64,000 nt of DNA from Catenaria anguillulae PL171 (Eukaryota; Blastocladiomycota; Blastocladiomycetes; Blastocladiales; Catenariaceae): assembly GCA_002102555.1 (NCBI GenBank), contig MCFL01000040.1, positions 124,001-188,000 of the forward strand, written 5' to 3'. Numbering within the stretch: position 1 is the first letter of the stretch; each line of letters starts with the position of its first letter. The position numbers and the translations under genes were made by a program. The notes beneath the pieces are model-generated. The model was not told the DNA's origin and did not search any database. It saw only the letters and a program-made list of their open reading frames with translations. Positions 4,396-54,300 of the stretch are shown here, piece after piece.

Positions 4396-6162
4396 ATGGC
4401 GGCTGACCTCCGCACCGACGTCCTGGATCCCACTCAACCAACTTACCGACATCTCTTCATGTCTCTCTGCAACGTCATGACTCACTCACATGCACCTAAC
4501 TGCATCGCAACCACGTCCATCATGTGTCCACACATCCCCATCACCACAACGTCAAACGCTGACTCGGGCCTGACGCTGGACCTCGCCCTAGCGATCATCA
4601 CCGTATCGCTTCGTTACACCCACGCAATCTCCTCTTCGTCGCCATCGCTCGCTCACGTCCGCTCGCGCCTCTTGACCCTTGTGCACGTTCTGCCACTGCG
4701 CTCCCCAAGTGTCGTCCGCTGTGCGCTCGTGCTCATGCCCTGGATCCAGCCATGCCACGTGTGTCTCAACCTGTATGTGCTGCGACAATTCACAGTTGCG
4801 CGACTGGCCACCGACGCCATTGGTGACCAAGCATGGCTTGCGTGCGTGCGTGTGGCAGCCGGTGCGGGCCGTGTGGATGTGCTCGCGCAAGTGTTTGGTA
4901 GAACGACAACGACAAATGGCAAGAGAAGCATGATGGATGTGGCAATGCAGGCCGCGTGCACAAAGGGAAACCTTGTCGTGATCAAGTGGCTGGTCCAGTC
5001 GAATCAAGTTGAAGTCCAAGTGACGAGCGCAGCACTTGGACAAGCAATTCGCCACGGCCACTCTTGCGTGCTTGATTTCATCATGGCATGTTCCGGTCGG
5101 GGTGGCATGCTGTGTAACAGGCACTTGCTCGACCATTCGGCACTCACCGGTGCGGCCCTCTCGTCTCCCTCGCCATCAACCATGCTCGCGTGGCTCGCAC
5201 GCAACAACCTGGCGCATTTCGACTCGTCCACACTTGCCGCCGCATGTACCTCTGGAACCCTGACCCTCATTGACCTGGTCCTTGGTCGCCTTGGCACACA
5301 TGTTGACTTGGCAAGCGCCTATCTGGCCGCATGCAAGGCCGGGCACCTGCACGTGCTCGACCATCTCCTGCACACATGGTCTCTCGCATTGCCAATCAAG
5401 TCCGAGATCACAACCAGGCTCGTGTGGGCAGCCGCACGCGCAGGCCATGTGGATGTGCTCGCCTGGCTCGTGGTCCGTGGCCACTGGCAGTATCCAAGCT
5501 CGGGGACCATGATGAGCCGGGTGCGCGACGTGCGAGTGCTCGCGTGGATCGTTGCGCATTTCCCAGTGGGCATGTTGGCGGGTGCGGGCGACGCGCTCGC
5601 GAAAGCGGCAAGCGAAGGAAACATGCAAGTGATTGAATGGTGGGCGGGGCAAGTCAGGGATGGGAAGGTGCGATCATTGATTGGATGGAACGAGATTGAG
5701 CGAATGGTTGAGCGGGCGTGGGTCGGTGGACAAGTGCATGTGTTGGAGTGGGTTGGCGGGCAGGTTGGGGTTGCAAGGGTGGTTGGGTGGGTGGGCGAGC
5801 GTGTCGTGGAGATGGGGACACAGAGTGTGGAGTGTTTGGAGTGGTGGTGGCGACACAAGCCGCAAGGGAAACGGGTCGATTGGGTGAGGAGTCGAGTGGA
5901 AAGAGCGATTGAGGTGGCGGAACAAGCGGGTGGATGGCACGGGTATGCAGTTGGGCATTGGTGGCGGCAACGGTTGGCCGCGTTGAGTGCAAGTGCGGAA
6001 GAGCGACTGTTGGATCCCCGACCCCGAGCCGACGTGAACTGTGTCAAAATCGACGTGTGCGATTGGGTGCTCAAGACTGGAGGTTCGGGAACGCAGCCAA
6101 AGACTCCCAAGTTGAACGTGGAGGCAGAGGCATTGGGCTGTTTGACGTCGGCGTTACCCTAG
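4396..6162 (+). CDS. Ankyrin-like repeat protein, 588 residues
   Basis: A single-exon frame. At least eight helical repeats of about 30-35 residues run from roughly residue 145 to 500. They end in variants of G-H-(V/L)-x-V-L-(D/A/E)-x-(L/W), for example G-H-L-H-V-L-D-H-L-L and G-H-V-D-V-L-A-W-L, as in degenerate ankyrin repeats. The same family recurs at 21.9-24.5 kb (intact), 57.5-59.5 kb (pseudogene) and 0.4-0.75 kb (fragment). The N-terminal 70 residues have no repeats, and the first ATG (4396) may not be the true start; other ATGs follow at 4459, 4474 and 4522. A 50-residue tail follows the last repeat. There is no signal peptide or catalytic motif, so a protein-binding role is inferred from the family only. 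Confidence 0.75.
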   Translation: MAADLRTDVLDPTQPTYRHLFMSLCNVMTHSHAPNCIATTSIMCPHIPITTTSNADSGLTLDLALAIITVSLRYTHAISSSSPSLAHVRSRLLTLVHVLPLRSPSVVRCALVLMPWIQPCHVCLNLYVLRQFTVARLATDAIGDQAWLACVRVAAGAGRVDVLAQVFGRTTTTNGKRSMMDVAMQAACTKGNLVVIKWLVQSNQVEVQVTSAALGQAIRHGHSCVLDFIMACSGRGGMLCNRHLLDHSALTGAALSSPSPSTMLAWLARNNLAHFDSSTLAAACTSGTLTLIDLVLGRLGTHVDLASAYLAACKAGHLHVLDHLLHTWSLALPIKSEITTRLVWAAARAGHVDVLAWLVVRGHWQYPSSGTMMSRVRDVRVLAWIVAHFPVGMLAGAGDALAKAASEGNMQVIEWWAGQVRDGKVRSLIGWNEIERMVERAWVGGQVHVLEWVGGQVGVARVVGWVGERVVEMGTQSVECLEWWWRHKPQGKRVDWVRSRVERAIEVAEQAGGWHGYAVGHWWRQRLAALSASAEERLLDPRPRADVNCVKIDVCDWVLKTGGSGTQPKTPKLNVEAEALGCLTSALP

Positions 6163-41610: not shown

Positions 41611-44600
41611 ATGGCCCCGTCATCGGCGAAACAGCCCTTGCTGCCGGATTCTCGGGCCAGTGCTTCCGTGACATCCGGCCTTGATTCCGCCAAATTAAAC
41701 AGCCAACAACGGGTTCGTGATGGTTGCATTCTGGAAGTGCACCTACAGTACCACTCACACACAGGTAACACATTCATCATGACTGTTTTAGCCGACGTGG
41801 AAACTCGTTGTTACGTTCACTGTGCCGATTCTCGCCTGTGCTGCTCTGTTTGCCACCTTATCCGGCTGGAGTACCACACAGGATGTGCGACCAAAGCCAT
41901 TGTCGGTGCGTGGCATGATCTTTTGAACCGCGTATCCCTTTTTTGTTGTTGCATGCGTTGTTGTGCCATGTCAAGTGAATAGCTGTGCCCGGCACGCAAT
42001 CGCCCGTGCCACATGTGACTGCGTTCATTTTCGGTGCGAGCAGCTTTGCACATCATGCACAGATGCATGGCACAAATTGAGCCGGCCACGATGATGATCA
42101 AAAATCACGAGCACAATGCTTGGATCGCTCGTCACGTGACTGGTCACACAGCTCCGTTTGCTTCATCATTTCCTCTTTTCTTTCCTTGCGCTTTCTCACA
42201 TCAAGCCTGACCGACCCATGACCCCTCGCAATGCATTATCCGTTCATGTGCTTCTACTGTCATCCACGTGTAGACGGTCAAATCCCCGGCCCTGTTTGCC
42301 ATTCCCGAAGAATGTTCGGGGCGAGGCATGATGGTCGTTGGCTCCAACCAGTGCTTGTGCGATATCGGGTACGCGGGCATCGACTGCAGCACATGGATTG
42401 GATTGGACGCTGAAGTGGATGCAGCACTCAAGTCGACGGATGTGGGATCGGATGGTGCGCATGGCTTCTTCCCTGTCTCCCAGACAGCAAAAAATGGGAA
42501 AGCGTCGGAGCTAACTTTCCACTCCAACTATCGACTATGACTATGTGACGTGATATAGCTCGCAAGGTGGCCATGTTCATCGACGCATACACGGCCGATG
42601 GCATCAAGATTGAAGACAACCTCAAGCTCGCTGCCCAAGTGCTCTCGACCACGCCCGACAATGTCCAACTCTTTGTGTACACGTCCATGCCACGCAACGT
42701 GGACGATTTGCGCAAGCAGTACCCTGGCCGTGTGACCATCAAGCCGTTTGCGCTCAAGCCCACCAACGCGCTCCAGGTGCAAGCTCGGTCACGCAAGGTG
42801 GCATCGACGCTGCTGGCCGAGGCAGGGATGGACTTGGTCTACTTTGACGCCAACTCGGGTGCCGGATACCATTACTTGGCTGGCAAGCAGCTCGGAGCGC
42901 GTTGCTCGCGGGCACGCGTCATTGTCGGTGTCACGCAGCGTGGAATCCAAGACAAGATGCTGGAATCGACGGGCATGGGTGCCAACAAGGTGGGCAGCAC
43001 CAGCGCGCTCAGTGATGTGTCGATTGCCATGGACCACTTCCGCGCGTCCATGCTCGAGCTGGCCGACAATGTCGTGTTCACGTCGGATCAAGTGCGTGAC
43101 GCCGAGCTCAAGCCCGCAACGGGTCGCCAGGTCGGTGTGTTGGCAGGCAAGGAGGCCAACATTCGCTCGATTCCACTGCTCTCATCGTCGACGCTCAGGG
43201 GCAACAAGCACGAGTTTGCCAACAACCCTGCGGGCACGCCCAACACGCCATCCGAATTCGTGTTTGTCGGATCGCTCAATGCGCAGAACGGGCTCATGGA
43301 GTTTGTGCGCGCGCTCGACCAGTTCCACTCGGTCATTGGCAAGGACCGCCAGTTCCGCGTCACGTTCTTTGACTTGCAGGACGGTACCAACACGGGCACG
43401 GACGAGGCTCAGCAGATTGATGGCCTTGCGCCCACCGAGTTCCTCAAGCAGCACCAGTTGCTATGGCCAGAGTTTTCCGTCCAAGTCAAGTCGGGAACCA
43501 TTCACCAGGCCGTGCAGCACATGATTGAACCTGGCACGGGGCGTGTGGCCATAGTCGGATCCAAGGTGTCGGCCAATGACATGAACGAGCTGCTTGTCGG
43601 GCATGTGCCGCTGTTGGTGCCGCGCGAACTCGAGATTGCCGCATTGGACGAGCTGACTGCCAGTATGGAAGGAGACGAGATGGACGAGGCCGACCAGGGC
43701 ATCATTCGCTTTTCACCCAACAATGCCGAAGACCACTCGATGGCGCTACTCAATGCACTGCGAAACGGTGTCAAGGCGCCGACGGCCCTTGCCCAAGGGT
43801 TGACCAAGCGCGGGACCGAGGCCGTGTCGGTTTTCGCGCAGCTCACCATGGCGGCGCGCCCTGCATGCAAAACGGCCGAGGACTTGCCGGTTGAAAAGGT
43901 GTCGGTGATTGTGTACCACGATCCGACAAAGACCAGCTTGGAAATGGTCAAGGACATTGTTGCCGAGCTTGAGCGCCAGCAAGTGGACGAGTATCGCCCT
44001 CTCGAGGTTGTGCTGGTGACAAGGCTGTCCAAGAACTCCAAGACCGTGAAGTACTTTGACGAGCTCGACGACATGTGGCAAGTACGTGGATGGATGGTGT
44101 TGCAACTTGCGGCCAATTCAAAATCTAGTTATCGCGACTTTGTTCGTGACGCGGCGCAACTGACCACGGGCGGGCTCATTGTCGTGATGCCGACGACGGT
44201 CATGCCAAAGCCACACATGGTTGCTTCTCTTGCACGTGCTGCAGGTGCTGCCGGTAACAAGGTCGATCTCCTTGTCGGTGACATTGATAATGTGCGCAAC
44301 AAGGTCACAAGGAACGCAGGTGCCTCAATTGACTCGTTGTCCTTGCCGCTCGTGGCGCCCGATATGCTCGCCAACCATGCCGGCATCGTCGCCATTCGCA
44401 AGTCGGTATTGCGCCTCGCTCCCGATGTTCTCGAACAATCCGTCGATTCGGCGTACTTGTCCGTTTTAGCGGCAAGAGCTAACGGCTTGCGTGCCATGTC
44501 GCTCGGCCAGTCAGTTGCGTGGGCAAATACACCCTCCTTGGATGCGCGCAGCCAAGACAAGGTCCAAGCCAAGGCGTTCAGCCTCATGTCGGGAAAATGG

Positions 44601-47600
44601 GCCACGTTGCAAGCCAGCGACCGCGCAGCCATGATGAGCGTGCTATATCGGAGGGCCGTCAACGATGCGGATGCACAACGGATTGCTCGCGCAGCTCAAG
44701 ATGAGGAAGCGGCGGCTGCCACAGCAACAGACACTTCGTCCGAGTCCACGTCGAGCACGGACACCTCCTCTAGCACGGATTCCACGTCGAGCACGGACAC
44801 CACGTCGAGCACGGACACCACGTCGAGCACGGACACCACGTCGAGCACGGATACCGCGTCGAGCACCGCCTCCTCGTCAAGTACGGATTCGCCGTCCAGT
44901 ACAGATTCATCGTCCAGCACGCAATCGACTTCGACCAGCGACTCGGCATCCTCGTCCAGCACGGACACCACGTCGACCACGGATACCGCGTCGAGCACCG
45001 CCTCCTCGTCAAGTACGGATTCGCCGTCCAGTACAGATTCATCGTCCAGCACGCAATCGACTTCGACCAGCGACTCGGCATCCTCGTCCAGCACTCAATC
45101 CAGCTCCAGCTCGGACAGCATGTCCGCATCGACAACGTCGAGCGATAGCACAACATCAAGCAGCAGCACAGCCAGTGACGGCAGCTCATCGGCCAGCACA
45201 GCAAGCTCGAGCTCGACCTCGACCTCGACCTCGGCCAGTATGAGCGATTCAACATCGTCAAGTAGCTCAACCTCAACAACCTCGGATACATCGACGAGCT
45301 CCACCTCGAGCACAACACTGGGCAGCAGTAGTTCAACATCAAGCGAGACGACCGCCACCTCGAGCTCGACTTCCAATGAATCAACGAGCAGCAGTAGCAC
45401 GGCCTCGAGCGAGACGACAACTTCGAGCTCATCAAGCTCCAGCTCCGACAGCTCCATCACCACCGCGTCAAGTTCGTCTCCTTCTTCCAGCAGCACGACT
45501 GTGAGCGGAACGTCAACCACCTCAACCGGCAGCAGCAGCAGCACGTCGTTCGGCGGCGCAACATCAAGCACGACCTCCACCAGCACGACGACTTCGATCG
45601 AAACCCAAGTGGAAAGTTCAAGCGCCGAAACAAGCTCAACAGCATCCGGCGAGGACAATTCAAGTACTGCCACTTTTGGCACGACCACGTCAATGCCCAC
45701 GTCAACATCTGAGGGTGCGCATCGTTGAGATCCCAATTGCTTGATAAACATATCACTCACACTTTGCTGCGACAGAGCCGACCACAACCTCGGAAGAGCC
45801 TCCTTCTTCGTCGTCGTCCGCCTCATTTTCATCGTCGTCATCGTCTTCAAGTGAGAGGACAGCCGAAGTCACCCGGACGGTTGTGCCAGTGCCCACAGCC
45901 ACGACGCCTCAAGTTGGAGCGACCGTTACAATCCCAGCTGGTCCTCCCGAGCCCACTGCTGTTGCGCCGTTGCTCCTGATTGATGGTCCCACTCTTTTGT
46001 CCAACTGTGACACGGATCCCGTTTTCCTGGATTTGAGCGGCAGTGGTGGTGACGATTTGACCTTCAAGGCCGAGTACCTGGGGTCCGATTCCGAAATCTC
46101 CACGGCATTCACGGAGCGGTTTGGGTCCACGTCATTCCCTGATCCGTTCTTGATGCTCGACGCTGAATGGGTGACAGTTGCTGCTCCGCTCCAAGTGCGC
46201 ATCACGGCCATCGAGTCCGAGTCGCAATACCAGACCCAGTACCAGACGCAGAGGACCATCACAATCACACGGTCCAACGATGCCGTGCCCATTGCTCAAC
46301 AATCGACGCCGATCCAAGTGGTTGGCTTGCAAGACGGTGTTGCCCAAGACGTCGTGGTCTCGTTCCCGGCGTGCTCGACCATCAATGTGACCCAAGTGAC
46401 GCTCGCCTACAACTGGCGCCTGTTCAACGCTGCCAACGAGGTGGAAGTCGACATGACGACGCTGCCCAACTTGGCGGGCCGCACCACGTCCCAGGTCTCG
46501 TTTGGCACGTCGACGCTCAACTATGGCAGCTACCTTTTGCGGGCCTATGTGACGTATGCGTCGAGCACGGTGCAGTCCAACTCGCTGATCCAGATTGTTG
46601 CTGGTGACTTGACGGCCAACGTGAACGGTGGCAACTACCAAGTGGTGACGGTTTCGCAAGCCAACACGCTCAGCGTGACCATCACGGACCCCGACTCGAC
46701 CGAAGCCCGTCCGCGGACCTATGTCATTTCGTGGTTGGCGTGCGCAATTGACGGCACTGCGTGCACGGTGCAAGCCAACACGGCGACCTATGTGGTCCCC
46801 GCCAACACGATCCCGTCGGGCCAGGGTGCCGTTTACGTTGTGCTTGTGACGGACGCCAACAATGCCAACCGGATTGCGGTCGACGGCGTGTACTTGGAGG
46901 GAACCACCGTTGTTGTGCCCAAACTCAAGCCCGGTCGCTTCCCCGAGACGCCCACGGTCTCTGCCAAGGATGACACGATTGTGTGGGTGGATGCGTTTGA
47001 TGCGTCGACCAATGACGAGATTTTCGGCGATTCGTACCAGTGGTCCATTTCGCCCCGGTCGGCCGTGACAAACGTGCAATTGACTGGCCCAACGACGGAT
47101 CCGTTCTACATTGCCCCCGCTGGCTTGTTTGCTGCCGGTGCCGACGTGACGCTGCGGTGCACAGTGACGGTCGGGTCTGCCTCGGTGTCGGCCGATATCC
47201 GTGTCCAGTTTGCCGGCTTGCCAGCTGGTGGGTCTCTGCGTGTGCTCAACGACAACACCAACCTTGCCAATGGTGTCGGTCAAGCGTTTGCCCACACTTT
47301 CAGGTTGTCGACGACGGGCTGGAATGGCGGTGCTCAGCCGTACGGTTACTCGTTTGGATTCACCACGTCGGTCAACAATGAAGAAGAAGACAACTTCTTG
47401 TCGTTCCTTTCGTCGTCGTCGTCCGTGACGGGTGTGCGCTTCCCGGCAACGGCCACCAAGGCGTGGGTCATTTTGACAGACAATGTCGGTACTGAAGTGC
47501 GCGTCAACCAGACCTTGACCATTACCCGCCCGACGGGTCAGACTGTGGCACAAGTGATTACCGCTGCAAACACTCAAGTCTCGACGATTCGCGCCACGAT

Positions 47601-48804
47601 ATCGTCGAGTTCCGAGGCGGCGCTTCTCCAAATCGGTGCCTTGCTCGACTTTATCGACTTTGATGCCTTGCCAGCGACGCCCTCGGCCAGCGAGCGTGCC
47701 CAAATCATTGCCATGCAGAACCAGGCCAATGCGTGGCTCAACCAGATTGCCACGTCGCGCGGGACTGTGGATGCTGGATTCGCTGCTCGCTCGGCGTCCA
47801 TGCTGACCAACATTGATCTGGGTGCCGTTTCGAGCGATGCGACGCAATTGACCAACACGCTCAACTTGCTCACGTCGACCATCAACGGTGCGGCGGTTGG
47901 CAAGGGTGGCAAGGCCGTGTCTGCGGATCCCAAGGTGACTGGGCAAATGGCCGGCGTGGTTGACGACTTGCTCGACCGGACCTTTGCGAGCCAGCCCACT
48001 ACATTGCGTCGTCGCGACGATGCCCACTCGCCGCTGCGTCGCCGTCAGGTCAACACCGAGACGCAGTTGCGTTCGTCGGTGGCCGGGCTCTTGCAAGGTT
48101 CGGTTGCCGGTGACACGTGCCGGTCCTCGGGTGTTGCCCGCACGGTCACGAGTCGGACTGGGTCCTTCTTGGGCAACGTGCGTCGCATTTCGCCCACGGC
48201 CAACACGAGTGGTGACTCTGCGCGTACGGTCGGCAACTTTGTGGCCACGCTGCCCGCTGTCGGCCTCCCTGCAGGCTCGTGCTTGGACTCGCACATGGTT
48301 CAATGGCGTCAAGCACGCAACTCGCAGGTCGCATCCAACAAGATTGTATCGCGTGGTGTGCTTTCCGTCAACACGTACAACTCGGGCAGTACCTCGGCCG
48401 GTCCCAACGTCTCTTCACGCATCTTGCGGTTTGAGTCGAGCAACTTGCTCGCCCTGCCCGCAAACCACCGTGCTGATTGCGTGGCGTTTGTGGGCGACGC
48501 GTGGGGGACAAATGGGTGTACAACCGTCAGTCGTACGAGTGGCTCGGTGACTTGCGATTGCCCCATGTCCGCCTCTGAATTTGCAGTTCAAGCCGTACCC
48601 GTGACAACTGGGACAACCACCACAGGTGGTGGTGGTGTGACGGCCACGGCGACGGGCACAGGTACAGGCACGCCGACACCGACACCGCCGGCCGAGGGCG
48701 GGTCCAATGCTGGAGCGATTGCTGGAGGTGTGGTTGGCGGTGTGGTTGGTGTTGGTGCGATTGGCGGTGGGTTGGCGTACATGCGCAAGCGCCGTGCTGG
48801 CTAA
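41611..48804 (+). CDS. GT4/GT2-like glycosyltransferase - mucin linker - REJ - GPS membrane fusion protein
   Basis: Five exons: 41611-41712, 41792-41905, 42274-42454, 42559-45714 and 45776-48804. All junctions are GT-AG and keep frame; predicted length is 2,193 residues. Order: cytosolic tail 1-38; signal anchor about 39-58; EGF-like cysteines 86, 99, 101, 110; GT4-like module about 134-575 (F-V-F-V-G-S-L-N-A-Q-N-G block); GT2-like module about 577-820, opening V-S-V-I-V-Y-H-D; Ser/Thr-rich linker about 850-1220; REJ region about 1260-1800 (Y-N-W at 1396-1398, N-G-G, D-P-D-S); GAIN-like region ending in a GPS-type motif with Cys 2086, 2099, 2111, 2113 and Trp2094; membrane helix about 2162-2187; basic tail. 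The GT2 acidic metal site is replaced by M-P-T-T-V-M (676-681), and the GPS His-Leu-Thr cleavage triad by M-S-A, so both may be inactive. It could be two adjacent genes, but the downstream half has no start or signal peptide. The 368-nt second intron is the least certain junction. Confidence 0.75.
44748..44855 (+). repeat. Six 18-bp units coding T-S-S-T-D-T
   Basis: Six tandem 18-base units (consensus ACGTCGAGCACGGACACC, four almost perfect) encode the start of the Ser/Thr linker in the fusion gene. In-frame unit length means copy-number change would keep the frame. Confidence 0.85.
44850..45094 (+). repeat. Direct duplication of 113 bp with a 132-bp period
   Basis: Bases 44850-44962 recur without any difference I can see at 44982-45094. 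The period of 132 is a multiple of three. It lies in the Ser/Thr linker and looks like a recent slippage or unequal-exchange event. Confidence 0.85.
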
Positions 48805-49201
48805 GGTTGTTGGCCACCTCCAACTGGTTCTTGTGAGATTGTTGTATTTTCTGTTGATGTCTCGTATTGTCGTTCTTTATGACCGTATTGGCGCACTCGC
48901 GGTTTGTCGTCGTACCTGACTTTTGCTCTGCTAAGATTGCTCTGTCTCTCTCTGCCATGTTTTTGTCCTTTCTCGGCTTCATGAAAACGAAGACTTTCTT
49001 ACCTCTGTGTTCAGAACTGTGCTTGGGCTGGGCACAGCTCGCCAGTCTTGGCGGACATGACGATTCCTGCCGTGTTGAAACTTGAAAGGCGATAGTCACC
49101 GAATCAAAACGAACGAACGAATACAGGAAAGTTACATGAAAAGGCCTGCAACAAAACTACCTCACATACATGATGCCCACTTGATTCTCAAGGGCATCCG
49201 G
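48805..49201. other. Convergent 3' ends of the fusion gene and prohibitin
   Basis: About 400 T-rich bases after the fusion stop. No gene is supported. Confidence 0.5.
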
Positions 49202-50146
49202 TTACACGCGCAAGTTCAAGAGCATTCCCGGCCCGCCCGCAGCGGCAGCCCCACCCTGTGCAGCGCCACCATGTGCGCCGCTGCTCGGCAAGTACGTGAC
49301 GTTGGGCGAGTTGGCCAAGATCTGGGCAATGTCCCTGGCGGCCTCGATGCGGCGGAACTCGACAAGTCCTGGGCCGGCCTTGCCCAAGGCATTGGAAATG
49401 ACCTCGGCAGCTTGAGCGTTGCCTTCGGCGCGGATAATGGCGGCTTGCATTTCTTGCTCGGCTTTTTCAACGACAAACTTGGCGCGCTCGGCTTCTTGCT
49501 GGGCAATTTGCTTTTGCTCGACGGCAGAGGTGAAGTCTTTGCCGAAAGCGAGATGGGTCTATGGGCAAATGTGCGGGTAGGTGGTGAACATGAGGTCGAG
49601 CAAGATTGAGTGTGCGTGCGACATATGTAAACATACGATGGAAACGTCCTCAAGCGAAATGTTGAAATCCTTTGCCCTCAAGTGCAACTCCTCGCGAATG
49701 CGTTCCGACACCAATTCACGCTGGGTAATGAGCTCGCTGGCATCAAAACGAGCCACAATGGCCTTGAGGACTTCATTGCCAATACTGGGCAGCACGCGCT
49801 CATCGTAGTCGGGGCCGAGCGTCTGATGCAACTGGGGCAACTTTGCCACGTCGGGCTTGTGCAGGACGCGGAGCGTCAAGCTGACCATTTGCATGTCGCG
49901 GGACCCCGTGGTCGTGGAGATGTTGCGTGGGCGAGTGCGCACGTCGTAGATGATTGCGCGCTGCAGCCACGGAATCACAAAGTGAGTGCCCTCGCCAATG
50001 ACTTCTTGGCGCACACCCTTGAGGCGATCGAAAATCACGGCACGCTGGCCGCCGGAGACATCAAACATGGAGGCCTGTGCCAGGGAGGCGGCGGCACCCA
50101 AGGTGACGGCGAGCGTAGTGAACCGGTCGATGATGCGGGAGGCCAT
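49202..50146 (-). CDS. PHB1: Prohibitin, PHB1 type
   Basis: Two exons, 50146-49637 and 49558-49202 (intron 78 nt, donor GTATGT, phase 0), encode 288 residues, the usual PHB1 length. A hydrophobic N-terminal segment (about 10-30) would anchor it in the inner mitochondrial membrane. The PHB/SPFH core follows with [10 protein letters not shown] and R-T-R-P-R-N-I, then E-D-V-S-I-T-H-L-A-F-G-K across the splice and the coiled-coil region [16 protein letters not shown]. It would form ring complexes with PHB2 that stabilise inner-membrane proteins and m-AAA protease. The C-terminus has an unusual Gly/Ala-rich insert (about 260-282) before L-L-N-L. A PHB2 partner is not in the window. Confidence 0.95.
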
Positions 50147-51348
50147 GTTGGACTTTGCTTGCGATAGACGACGATGTGTTTGGGGATCACAGCGAGTCAG
50201 GATCGGTGAATGTCGGAGGTGGAGACAACAAGAGAGTGGGTGGGTGGGTCAAGGCAGACAGACGGCGCAAGTGCAAGTGTCGGCGGCGGATCGGTCTGAA
50301 GATGACACTATGATTTGCGGAATGCGGGCAGTGCGTAGTATCGTTGCTGGTCAATACGTGGCATTCATGGCGACCGTGATTGGGATTACGGATCAGAAGG
50401 AGTTGGAATATTGAATGATGTAACCATCGTTAGTCAGAGTATGGAAGGGTCTGGGAAGGGCTATGGAATGCAGTCACGAGCGCCGTTTTGATGGGACGCC
50501 GATCGAATCGCCCACTGGTCCCACTGGTGTGTCCAAGGCAAGTCCCAGGCAAGCCCAAGCATCTGACAGAGTCCCATGACCCATGACCCAAACCAGCATG
50601 CAGCACAAGTAGACAAGGAATCGAGTCGCGCGGTTGGCAGAGTTCAATTTTAACGGCAGAGAGGCAGGTGCGACTTGAAGTAACTTGTCCGCCAGTATAC
50701 ACATATCGAGCTGTGATTGATCTTGCGCAACTGCTATATACATGAACAGACGACGTGGGTCGGCCTGTCGACGTGACCAAAAGCGCAACAGCAGCGAAAT
50801 CAACGAGTATGGGAATCCAACTGAAATGGACGGCCGCGGGAACAGGAAAGAGTCTGACCATTGCCATGAGCAATACATCACGAACGAGCTCGGTAATCGA
50901 ACCTATAACCAGAACATTGAAACAGCGGTGATTCTCTTGCACGATTTCGGCTCGGAGACTCGAGAATGTTCGACAAAGCCGTGGTAGCAATGAACCCCCA
51001 GCAACGTTGGTTTGATCACAATTTGGGATGCGGCGTTTGGGGTGTTGGCAATGTATCTGCCTTGGCTCTGGTGTGATGCAGCGACCGAAACTATGTCTGT
51101 AAATGAAGGACGAGGGAAACGAGGGCAAAAGAATGAGTGACTCGTCTTGAAGACAAGACGTGTTGCAAAAGAACCCTCACTTACTTCATTGCAGCACGAA
51201 AGTGTTGAAATGCAACATGATAGATCAGAACTTGAAGAGCGTGAGCTCGCTCGGACGTTACCAAAAAGAATATAAGTCAAGGAAAGCATGAACGGGGAAA
51301 GGTGCCGCAACAACAACGACGAGAGAATCGGGTTCAACATGAGCAGAA
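50147..51348. other. Intergenic, no gene supported
   Basis: About 1.2 kb. The longest open frame (232 codons, minus strand, 51128-50430) has no coding bias, mixed low-frequency codons and no motif, so I do not call it. The left part is the prohibitin upstream region. Confidence 0.45.
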
Positions 51349-54300
51349 TCACTGCACCCAGCCATCCACAACCTCGGGAATCGAGCACAGCGTCAACACA
51401 TTCCCCTCACCAGCGCCCTCACATTTTGCCCTGATGCCAAACTTTGCCCGATTGCCCTCCTCCAAGTACACCGTCAACCCGCCATCCCGCTCGTCGTACT
51501 CGTGAATCCAGAAATCCGTGAAACTCGTCTCCTCGTTGGGCCACGTCCACTTGTTTGTCGCACTCACCTGCGCGTTCTCGGTCAACCAATCTGCGCCCCA
51601 CATCTCGGGATCTTTGGTAATCGGCCCATCAAAGTCCACAGGGTGATCCACATCGGTCACGACCCGCTCATACACCCTGACATGCAGCCCAAAGGTGACC
51701 ACAATGGTCGCCTCCCTGCCCACGTCCCGCCCGCGCACATGCACAAAGAACCGGCGAAACATGAGCGTCCTCGGCATCTGCTCCACGAGATGCCACCAGT
51801 CGTGCACAGCCAGCATGCGTGTAAGCATGCCTGACGAAAACAGCGGCGGTAAGTTTTCCAGATCGCTCAACGTCACGGGCGGCGCGCGTGACACTCGTGC
51901 AGACAGGTATGCGCGGCCACTGGGCCAGCCCTGGCCCATGAGCTCGAGCGGGTTGAACATAGGCACGCGCGTCAGCGGCACGCCTGCGGGGATGCCGACC
52001 TTGACGGCCACTGCGTCGATACACGCCTTGATCAGGTCCGCACCGAAAAAGCCCGGATCGCCCTTGGCCAAATGCTGCACACACCATGCGTGATGCTTGT
52101 GGAGCTGCGCGGCCAACGCACGTGAAATGAGCATGCCGCCACCGGCACCCGCCATATTGCCGTGCGTCCGCTGCCGGTCCTTGCTCTCCGACACCTCGCC
52201 CATGTACACATAGGTCTGCATCGGGTCCACATCCAACGACGTGACGAGCGCCTGAACTTGTCTCGGGAACCAAACGGTCCCCTCTGCGCCCAGGGCAAAC
52301 CACTGGACGTCCTCGGGGCTCGTATCGTACATGTGCACGAGCATGTGGAACGCCATGAGTTTCCAATCGCCACCCAGGATCACAGGATAATGCGTACTGC
52401 CCGTTGCATTCATGTAGGCGTGCATGAGGTACGACTGTACGCCGTACAAACCACGCGGGTCGTCGGCGTGTGACCAGTAGATGCGCAGGTGCACGTCCGA
52501 GTGTGCGTTCGGATCGGCAAACGTCTGGTACATGGCAATGTATCGGTGAAGCGCAGTCGGCGAGCCCGTGTTGCCGAATCGGACGTGGTGCCTAAGCGAA
52601 AAGTTGGCGTGGCGGGCAATCGGTTGGCGGTCCCATTTGCGGCGCGGCCATGTGGATAGCGGAGGCAACGTTGCAACGATGTTAGTATGGTCGGTGGCGG
52701 GGGCCGTGACCGAGTCCGAGTCGACGGCAAAGACTTTGGCGGCTTTTTGCCCGATATGTGACGGGCCGGGGAGTGATGGGTCAATGCGCAGTGTGAGGTC
52801 GTAGTGGAGCGGCATGGAGCGGTCCCAAGAGGACCATTGGCGACGTGAGGCGCTGGGACTCCTAGTTTGCACAGATGGCGTGACGCCAGTCGGAGTTGGC
52901 GGTGATGCCGGTGAGTTGGACGAGGGCATGGCGATGATGAGAGCAAGCGACAGCGTCAAGGCCGCAAGGACGAGCACCGACTTGCTGGATCCGGCGGTTC
53001 TTTCCGTGTGCGAATGCTTGCCCGCCACCTTGCTTGTCGTCGCTGAATGAATCAACGCAGGCTCCAACCCGCTCCTTGCCTTGACCAGGGCATGCACCAC
53101 GACCGCAAACGTTCCACAGTAGACAGCCTTGAGCATAAACGGCGACACGTCTGTGATTCCAAACACAATACCGGCTGCGAGAAAGGTTCCGGCGTCGCGA
53201 AGCAGCTCAACTGCGGCTGGAGGAATCACGGAGGGAGAGGCGAGCAGTGACGTGTGGACTGTTGGATCGAGCGAGACGGTGGCCGAGTGGTCGAGTGGAT
53301 GGTGCCGCAAAAATGTAGCGCCGTGGATGGCGTACTGCGTCAAGAAGTGGGCGACTGTAGCAAAGACGACAAAGCCCAGCACTTGCAAGGCTGGGAAGTT
53401 GCCAGTGAATCCATTGTTTGCCGGTGATGGTGACGCGGAGGATGACAGCGAGAGGACAAGCAATAGAGCGAACGCGGCCTGTACATTACATGGGCAAGGA
53501 ATGCTGAGTAGGTATCCAAGCATACATGGGATGCAGTAGCTCAGCACAGGTCAATACGTACCAAGGATTGAACCGCCTTGACAAACATCTCTTGCCCGCC
53601 CATCATGATCGTTGAACTTGGGCGATCGCATGCCAAAATCGACGTGGCGAGCAAGTCGCGCGAGGTCCGTCTTGCGAGTCCCACGCCTGCCAATGACATG
53701 GCCGTGTAGACGGAAATCTTGGCAACATCCACGGCCCCAGCGGCAAATGAGAGAGACGAGATCCAAGCAACACACGCAATACCTAGTGTAGCGATCAAGG
53801 GCAGTGACAGTGACAGCCCAGGGATGACCAGTGGCGTGATGGTTCAGAGCAGTCGGACAGCCAAGACTGGGGCGAGCGCGACTTGAGCAAACTGCAAAGT
53901 GCTCGAGACATTTTGAAAGACTAGATTTGATAGCGCAAGTGCGACAGCGGTGGAATAGAATGCGTAAAACGGTGACATCAAGAGCATTGAAAGCGCCGTG
54001 AAGGCGTCTGACAAGCCAGAATCAATCATTGTCGACAGTGCGAGTTTTGCGAGTCGTCGAAGCGTACTCGGTGCGAGCATGTCGTCACCGGTCCCTGATG
54101 CTGATGAGGACGGCTCGTCGTCGTGAATGCGCTTGGCCGAGTAGTCTGGCCGCAACCATGCCATCAAGCCAGATACTAACAATGACCCGATCCCCACGGC
54201 CAGCTGATCCAACGCTGCCAAGTGCAACAGTCCTATCCGCGTGTACTGAACGTTTCCCGCGCCTTTTCCGTTGAATGCTGCTGCTGCTGCTGCCTGCTCA

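Follow-up and report, generated by a model that had tools for sequence, protein, structure and literature searches.

REJ and GPS domains function in polycystins and in the receptors that animals use at fertilisation. Here we analyse a gene of Catenaria anguillulae PL171, an aquatic, nematode-infecting blastocladiomycete fungus, which appears to join such domains to a glycosyltransferase (GT)-like head. The gene lies at 41611-48804 of a 64,000-nucleotide (nt) stretch of DNA (hereafter the window), itself part of a contig of 225,017 bases (C335) in a 41 Mb genome. On sea-urchin sperm, REJ/GPS-type surface domains are used for sensing the egg coat; the accessible part of the account of the SpREJ family (PMC1934368) describes proteins with REJ and GPS, C-type lectin domains in SpREJ1-3 and an EGF domain in SpREJ1, which on sperm binds sulfated fucan. 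According to the same sections, SpREJ1 and SpREJ2 have one or two membrane helices, and both ends of SpREJ2 are predicted to lie on the same side of the membrane (PMC1934368). In Ectocarpus, the male-gamete protein Esi0130_0068 carries REJ and GPS (PMC4700764, accessible part), and a 2025 survey, in its accessible text, reports GAIN domains in other genes of non-holozoans and complex receptor N-termini that appear holozoan-restricted (PMC12716839). Our analysis indicates that the window gene is real, is probably single and is a new domain combination of this known receptor kind, for which we propose a function below.

One gene or two

The sequence-only reading of this stretch had proposed one spliced protein across 41611-48804, and a single gene with that order of parts is well supported. 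A splice model of five exons gives a single in-frame chain of 2193 amino acids (aa) with one terminal stop; all four introns are GT-AG, and three have GTGCGT or GTGCGC donors. We favour one gene because a second copy downstream (copy 2) keeps the order of parts with about 400 nt between its halves, because the anchor has a matching counterpart upstream of a REJ/GPS paralogue that lies on a different contig (C402), and because the REJ half alone would have no signal sequence. The features, with the evidence for each in brackets, are as follows.

41611..41712, plus strand: exon 1, N-terminal hydrophilic segment, aa 1-34, predicted cytosolic (splice model; intron 1 homologous in copy 2)
41792..41905, plus strand: exon 2, signal anchor, with hydrophobic aa 38-57 at about 41801-41860 (hydropathy; C402 match)
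42274..42454, plus strand: exon 3, EGF-like domain with four Cys, match at about 42301-42390 (Pfam EGF_Teneurin)
42559..45714, plus strand: exon 4 (splice model)
42559..43832, plus strand: probable GT4-like (GT-B) half, aa 133-557, with its first codon interrupted by intron 3 (hhalign)
43863..44735, plus strand: possible GT2-like (GT-A) half, a weak match, with PTT at the DXD position (hhalign)
44733..45714, plus strand: Ser/Thr-rich rod, first part, with 9/18/54/132-nt tandem repeats (composition; Tandem Repeats Finder)
45715..45775, plus strand: intron 4, 61 nt, GTGCGC...GACAG, joining the halves in frame (splice model)
45776..48804, plus strand: exon 5 (splice model)
45776..45955, plus strand: Ser/Thr-rich rod, end (splice model; composition)
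46390..47583, plus strand: probable REJ region, approximate (alignment to the C402 paralogue)
48478..48600, plus strand: GPS-like motif C..W..GC..CDCPMSASEFAV, without the His of HL(S/T) (Pfam GPS E 0.02; C402 alignment)
48709..48801, plus strand: C-terminal membrane helix, Gly-rich, and basic tail (hydropathy; conserved in C402)

Copy 2 (C335:191958-198355) lies on the same strand of the same contig, 19 kb downstream of the window gene, and runs in the window order: exon 1, anchor, EGF, GT-like part, Ser/Thr linker, REJ and GPS. Its DNA is 83.8% identical to the window's in the GT-like part and 96.1% identical in the REJ part; the roughly 400 nt between the two regions of homology are Ser/Thr-coding in changing frames and leave little room for a second gene start. 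The public copy-2 model P0001 (BCR44DRAFT_1223389) has introns at positions homologous to introns 1-3, which provides independent support for the window gene model; intron 4, the joint on which the sequence-only reading relied, is without comparable support from a public model. Ser/Thr coding flanks intron 4 on both sides. If it is not spliced, the upstream frame stops at 45728. In the downstream frame the first Met is at 46153, and no separate start near 45.7 kb was seen; that first Met lies within the REJ-type part (it is the residue where a second public copy-2 model, P0002, starts), hence the lack of a signal sequence in a REJ half standing alone.

In the C402 paralogue an anchor segment lies about 400 nt upstream of the REJ part, with no GT-like part between them. 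Its residues are identical to those of the window anchor at 13 of 29 positions, and 0 of 5000 shuffles, for each of two shuffle kinds, were as good; judged by this alignment, C402 places anchor and REJ within a single gene plan. The comparison suggests either that one line acquired the GT-like part or that C402 lost it. The paralogue has a frameshift inside its REJ part (L022, minus strand, near 5416) and another frame change near its start.

Several observations weigh against a single intact gene. Copy 2 is frameshifted, with no clean open frame, and its public annotation is split (BCR44DRAFT_1223389 and _1223408); the C402 gene also has frame changes, and its anchor-REJ link needs an intron plus a frame change. 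The window's own gene, fused or split, was not returned from public proteins by three sequence searches; the missing public protein helps neither the one-gene nor the two-gene side. At the five junctions in the GT-like part of copy 2 there are three one-base overlaps, one two-base gap and one unresolved 63-base stretch, and we would guess that the copy-2 frameshifts are assembly errors.

These points could be taken to mean that there are two genes, one for an anchored GT-like protein ending in a Ser/Thr tail and the other for a REJ/GPS protein: the first frame would end at 45728 if intron 4 were kept, copy 2 is annotated in two parts, and the protein search returned no fused public model. However, the first public copy-2 model stops at a frameshift, and the second begins at an internal Met below further frame changes; the REJ half on its own lacks a signal sequence, whereas in C402 a matching anchor stands immediately upstream of REJ; and Ser/Thr coding continues across intron 4. 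We consider two genes improbable.

Divergence between the copies bears on whether the single gene is alive. Three of the six GT-like pieces are near-identical (synonymous divergence, dS, 0.05-0.12) with no amino-acid change, and the other three are diverged, with dS of 0.62, 1.48 and 1.26 and ratios of nonsynonymous to synonymous divergence (dN/dS) of 0.26, 0.155 and 0.108. On the REJ side five of seven alignment windows are near-identical (dS 0-0.02); the GPS-end window has dS 0.68 and dN/dS 0.13, and over the last 31 codons dS is 0.31 while every amino acid is unchanged. Purifying selection acts on the GT-like part, and the abrupt alternation of near-identical and diverged tracts (dS from near 0 to 1.5) suggests that the two copies have undergone gene conversion. 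An assembly artefact or a dead gene might be read from the frameshifts in copy 2 and from the three related stretches on this contig, one of them inverted at the contig end, but the window copy is fully open, selection is purifying at dS up to 1.48 and the same order recurs in a diverged copy; we regard this explanation as extremely unlikely.

The REJ/GPS end, the rod and the membrane segments

The REJ domain claimed for the downstream half stands by way of the C402 paralogue and not through a direct Pfam match. A genome-wide REJ search matched contig C402 only, where two pieces match Pfam REJ positions 10-113 and 231-430 of 452 (E 2e-6 and 3.7e-8; 27.1 and 32.9 bits, both over the cut-off), and the GPS of C402 is also over its cut-off (E 1e-4). 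This paralogue aligns to 15-958 of the window's 958-aa downstream stretch at 41% and 49% identity, so that REJ/GPS kinship was found in the downstream part, and the window REJ region is probably REJ by descent from this kinship. Two points count against the assignment: neither the window protein nor the copy-2 protein P0002 matches Pfam REJ (PF02010) at E<=10; and there are five Cys before the GAIN region in the window protein and four in C402. In animals, a complete REJ domain reportedly retains six Cys (accessible part of PMC1934368).

The GAIN/GPS-like end had likewise been proposed earlier; the Cys/Trp pattern ahead of the membrane helix is kept and C402 exceeds the cut-off, but the window motif itself (Pfam E 0.02, 15.6 bits) is below the cut-off of 22.5 bits and is absent from the genome-wide GPS list at E<=1. 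Copy 2 scores 23.0 bits genome-wide, over the cut-off, and 18.2, below it, when P0002 is scanned; C402 scores 28.2 bits genome-wide and 23.2 in the protein scan. GPS cleavage requires the His of the HL(S/T) triad, and this His is absent in all three copies (CDCPMSASEFAV, CDCPLSSSDFAV, CDCNMAATEFAV). By hydropathy there is no seven- or eleven-helix transmembrane bundle after the GPS: one hydrophobic segment is followed by a short basic tail, so by plan the protein is neither a polycystin nor an adhesion G-protein-coupled receptor.

Across the whole protein the two strongest hydrophobic segments are at about aa 38-57 and aa 2163-2183, which agrees with the N-terminal signal anchor and second membrane helix that had been read from the sequence. 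The EGF-like segment was also borne out: EGF_Teneurin matches exon 3 above the Pfam cut-off (E 7.3e-6; 26.4 bits against 24.3), with four Cys only, and the exon is 83% identical in copy 2. The Ser/Thr linker, put at about 370 residues, is found as a rod with 72% Ser plus Thr across 388 aa. In the window, 44746-45094 holds nested tandem repeats of 9, 18, 54 and 132 nt; the 132-nt unit is 98% matching, and rod length may therefore vary among strains.

The glycosyltransferase-like middle and the gene's surroundings

By profile-profile comparison, the roughly 725 aa between the EGF-like domain and the rod are glycosyltransferase-like. The hhalign profiles were built, after a length filter, from 32 of 40 fetched bacterial GT4 frames and 18 of 30 GT2 frames; SDR (24 of 24 frames) and response-regulator (9 of 16) profiles served as controls, as did profiles of 12 colanic-acid genes drawn from 38 of 80 loci, three of the 12 with one sequence only. 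The first half scores 35.5 against GT4 (Prob 34), compared with 14.1 for the reversed control and 19.1 and 25.2 for the best of 20 column and 20 block shuffles; against other profiles it scores 21.2 (GT2), 20.3 (SDR), 19.1 (response regulator) and at most 17.6 (colanic-acid genes). The GT4-like alignment is colinear in global mode. The second half scores 24.9 against GT2 (Prob 3.6), with 12.9 for the reversed control, at most 18.2 and 22.3 for 20 shuffles of each kind, and 21.7, 16.1, 14.7 and at most 21.4 (Fcl) against GT4, SDR, response-regulator and colanic-acid profiles. Thus, of the tandem GT4 and GT2 folds proposed earlier, what remains is a remote profile signal, moderate for GT4 and weak for GT2, with no Pfam hit at cut-off: the first half is probably GT4-like, and the second is possibly GT2-like and, if so, degenerate.

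Set against a GT descent are a GT2-like score little above its best shuffle (22.3), GT4 (21.7) and Fcl (21.4), a GT4 alignment that is carried by about 115 columns, and the silence in either half of the single-gene GT4/GT2 profiles (WcaI, WcaC, WcaE, WcaA), which means that the GT signal appears only with diverse profiles. On the window protein, every glycosyltransferase model in Pfam and NCBIfam stays below its cut-off, and a genome-wide PF00535 search gave 16 matches, none on the window contig. PDB sequence searches gave no GT row, only chance-level rows or none, and among the 42 stretches that the GT-like part matched in a scan of prokaryote genomes there was no relative. Three long frames were considered as possible GT4-GT2 tandems and set aside; two have GT4 rows without GT2 and one has no rows. 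We did not use an NCBIfam stp1 row (E 0.0029 for the piece, 0.04 for the whole, far below cut-off), in which the N-terminal half of the query is paired with the C-terminal part of the profile; beside it stand weak non-GT rows for GalR (0.032), CAF1C (0.021) and GDPD (0.042).

The middle might accordingly be another alpha/beta domain pair with no GT kinship, in which case the remaining architecture stands. The absence of cut-off matches in Pfam and NCBIfam and of GT rows among PDB sequences, the weak non-GT rows that accompany the single weak GT row, the silent single-gene profiles and the narrow lead of the GT2-like score over its controls would all fit. However, the 35.5 of the first half exceeds the reversed control, 40 shuffles and the SDR, response-regulator and 12 colanic-acid controls in a colinear alignment, and we judge a different domain pair unlikely.

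If the GT reading is kept, activity of the second half is unlikely, since the DXD position appears lost: the column reads PTT in the window and PTN in copy 2, on the weak GT2 alignment. Of the six copy-2 pieces, two are kept in our alignment of the relatives. The donor/catalytic motif of glycosyltransferase family 4 is E-x7-E, and over that region the alignment is too loose to place it. Golgi transferases usually have a signal anchor followed by a GT module, a plan that the window protein shares; together with the GT4-like signal retained in the first half, this could point to an active or regulatory glycosylation protein of the Golgi or endoplasmic reticulum, in which a type II anchored transferase has been joined to an adhesion-type ectodomain. 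Yet the DXD position of the GT2-like half is lost in both copies, and parts such as the REJ/GPS foot and the second anchor are those of a surface receptor; we find such a protein decidedly unlikely.

As to the surroundings, the contig end (C335:220001-225013; L021) is an inverted, 94-95% identical copy of window 47756-53271, spanning the gene's 3' end and the next stretch; it may be a segmental duplication, a haplotype join or a misassembly. A neighbouring gene at 49682-50146 on the minus strand encodes a Band_7/SPFH (prohibitin-type) domain (Pfam E 6.5e-21). On the plus strand, a frame at 39794-40360 matches Pfam TagF_N weakly (E 0.0021, under the cut-off), probably by chance.

A proposed surface protein and its known counterparts

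We propose, with confidence evenly balanced, that the gene encodes a surface protein that is anchored twice in the membrane and stays uncleaved, and whose head has no catalytic role and perhaps binds sugars, in a layout resembling that of SpREJ1 and SpREJ2. The protein would be held at both ends by the N-terminal signal anchor and the C-terminal helix, both ends in the cytosol and the middle outside the cell. Its 725-aa middle may descend from GT4-like and GT2-like modules, a kinship weakly shown; with the DXD gone, the GT2-like half would have lost catalysis, and the head could now bind sugars as a lectin does. The rod, probably O-glycosylated, would keep the head off the membrane, and the REJ/GPS base, lacking the GPS His, would stay uncleaved and could serve as an elastic or mechanical foot. 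Such topology, lectin-like head, rod spacing and mechanical foot are what we infer from the parts. Like SpREJ1, it would probably be used by flagellated cells for glycan contact, whether with a partner cell, with a cyst wall or with the surface of a nematode. The doubly anchored, receptor-like reading offered earlier thus fits the parts found, and the contact of sugars, gametes or zoospores suggested with it may be the role.

More tentatively, and with confidence short of even, we suggest that a zoosporic-fungal lineage independently built a REJ-receptor-like protein, with a retired GT4-GT2 pair as lectin head, a mucin-type rod and an uncleavable, doubly anchored foot. REJ and GPS joined to a sugar-related head in a flagellated fungus would suggest that glycan-sensing contact receptors of such a plan had more than one origin or predate animals; the gene would also exemplify the conversion of a transferase pair into a binding domain and would be a testable candidate for surface recognition by Blastocladiomycota zoospores or gametes.

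The sequence-only reading was aware of no fusion of this kind. No orthologue of the fusion was found by protein searches that reach close relatives only and cover no other fungal genome: shared 5-residue words were needed, the best 8000 candidates were scored and length limits applied (in one search about 1206-3838 aa), so that relatives at the level of Allomyces could be missed. Two of the searches returned one copy-2 fragment each and the third none. In literature made up mostly of open papers, with few subscription journals, no paper joined 'REJ domain' with 'glycosyltransferase', and among mostly open papers no title under 'receptor for egg jelly' and 'fungal' concerned a fungal REJ protein. 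Already known are REJ/GPS and sugar-binding domains in one chain (SpREJ; accessible part of PMC1934368) and REJ/GPS outside animals (Ectocarpus). The apparent novelty lies in the GT-like head and in the occurrence in a fungus.

Some bacterial proteins carry GT4 and GT2 modules, in the order GT4-like then GT2-like, and there is a motif resemblance; compared with these, the Catenaria protein has lost the DXD position and had no close relative in the prokaryote scan. Fungal single-pass wall sensors of the Wsc/Mid2 type have a Ser/Thr rod, a Gly-rich helix and a basic tail, and the Catenaria protein shares all three; to our knowledge these sensors carry no REJ/GPS or GT-like domain. Like the polycystin-1 family, the Catenaria protein has REJ and then GPS ahead of a membrane helix, but it differs in having one helix after the GPS rather than 11, a short basic tail and no Pfam PLAT row. 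With Ectocarpus Esi0130_0068 it shares REJ and GPS outside animals, whereas that protein has six or seven predicted helices and a channel match, and no GT-like part is reported for it in the accessible part of its description.

In its proposed plan the protein resembles sea-urchin SpREJ1 and SpREJ2, as the accessible sections describe them. These have C-type lectin domains where the Catenaria protein has GT-like modules, and the latter differs further in being fungal and in its N-terminal signal anchor, long Ser/Thr rod and GPS without His. In common are REJ and GPS, sugar-related or sugar-binding domains and one or two membrane helices; with SpREJ2 the Catenaria protein shares the prediction of both ends on one side of the membrane, and with SpREJ1, itself a glycan receptor on a flagellated cell, a single EGF domain.

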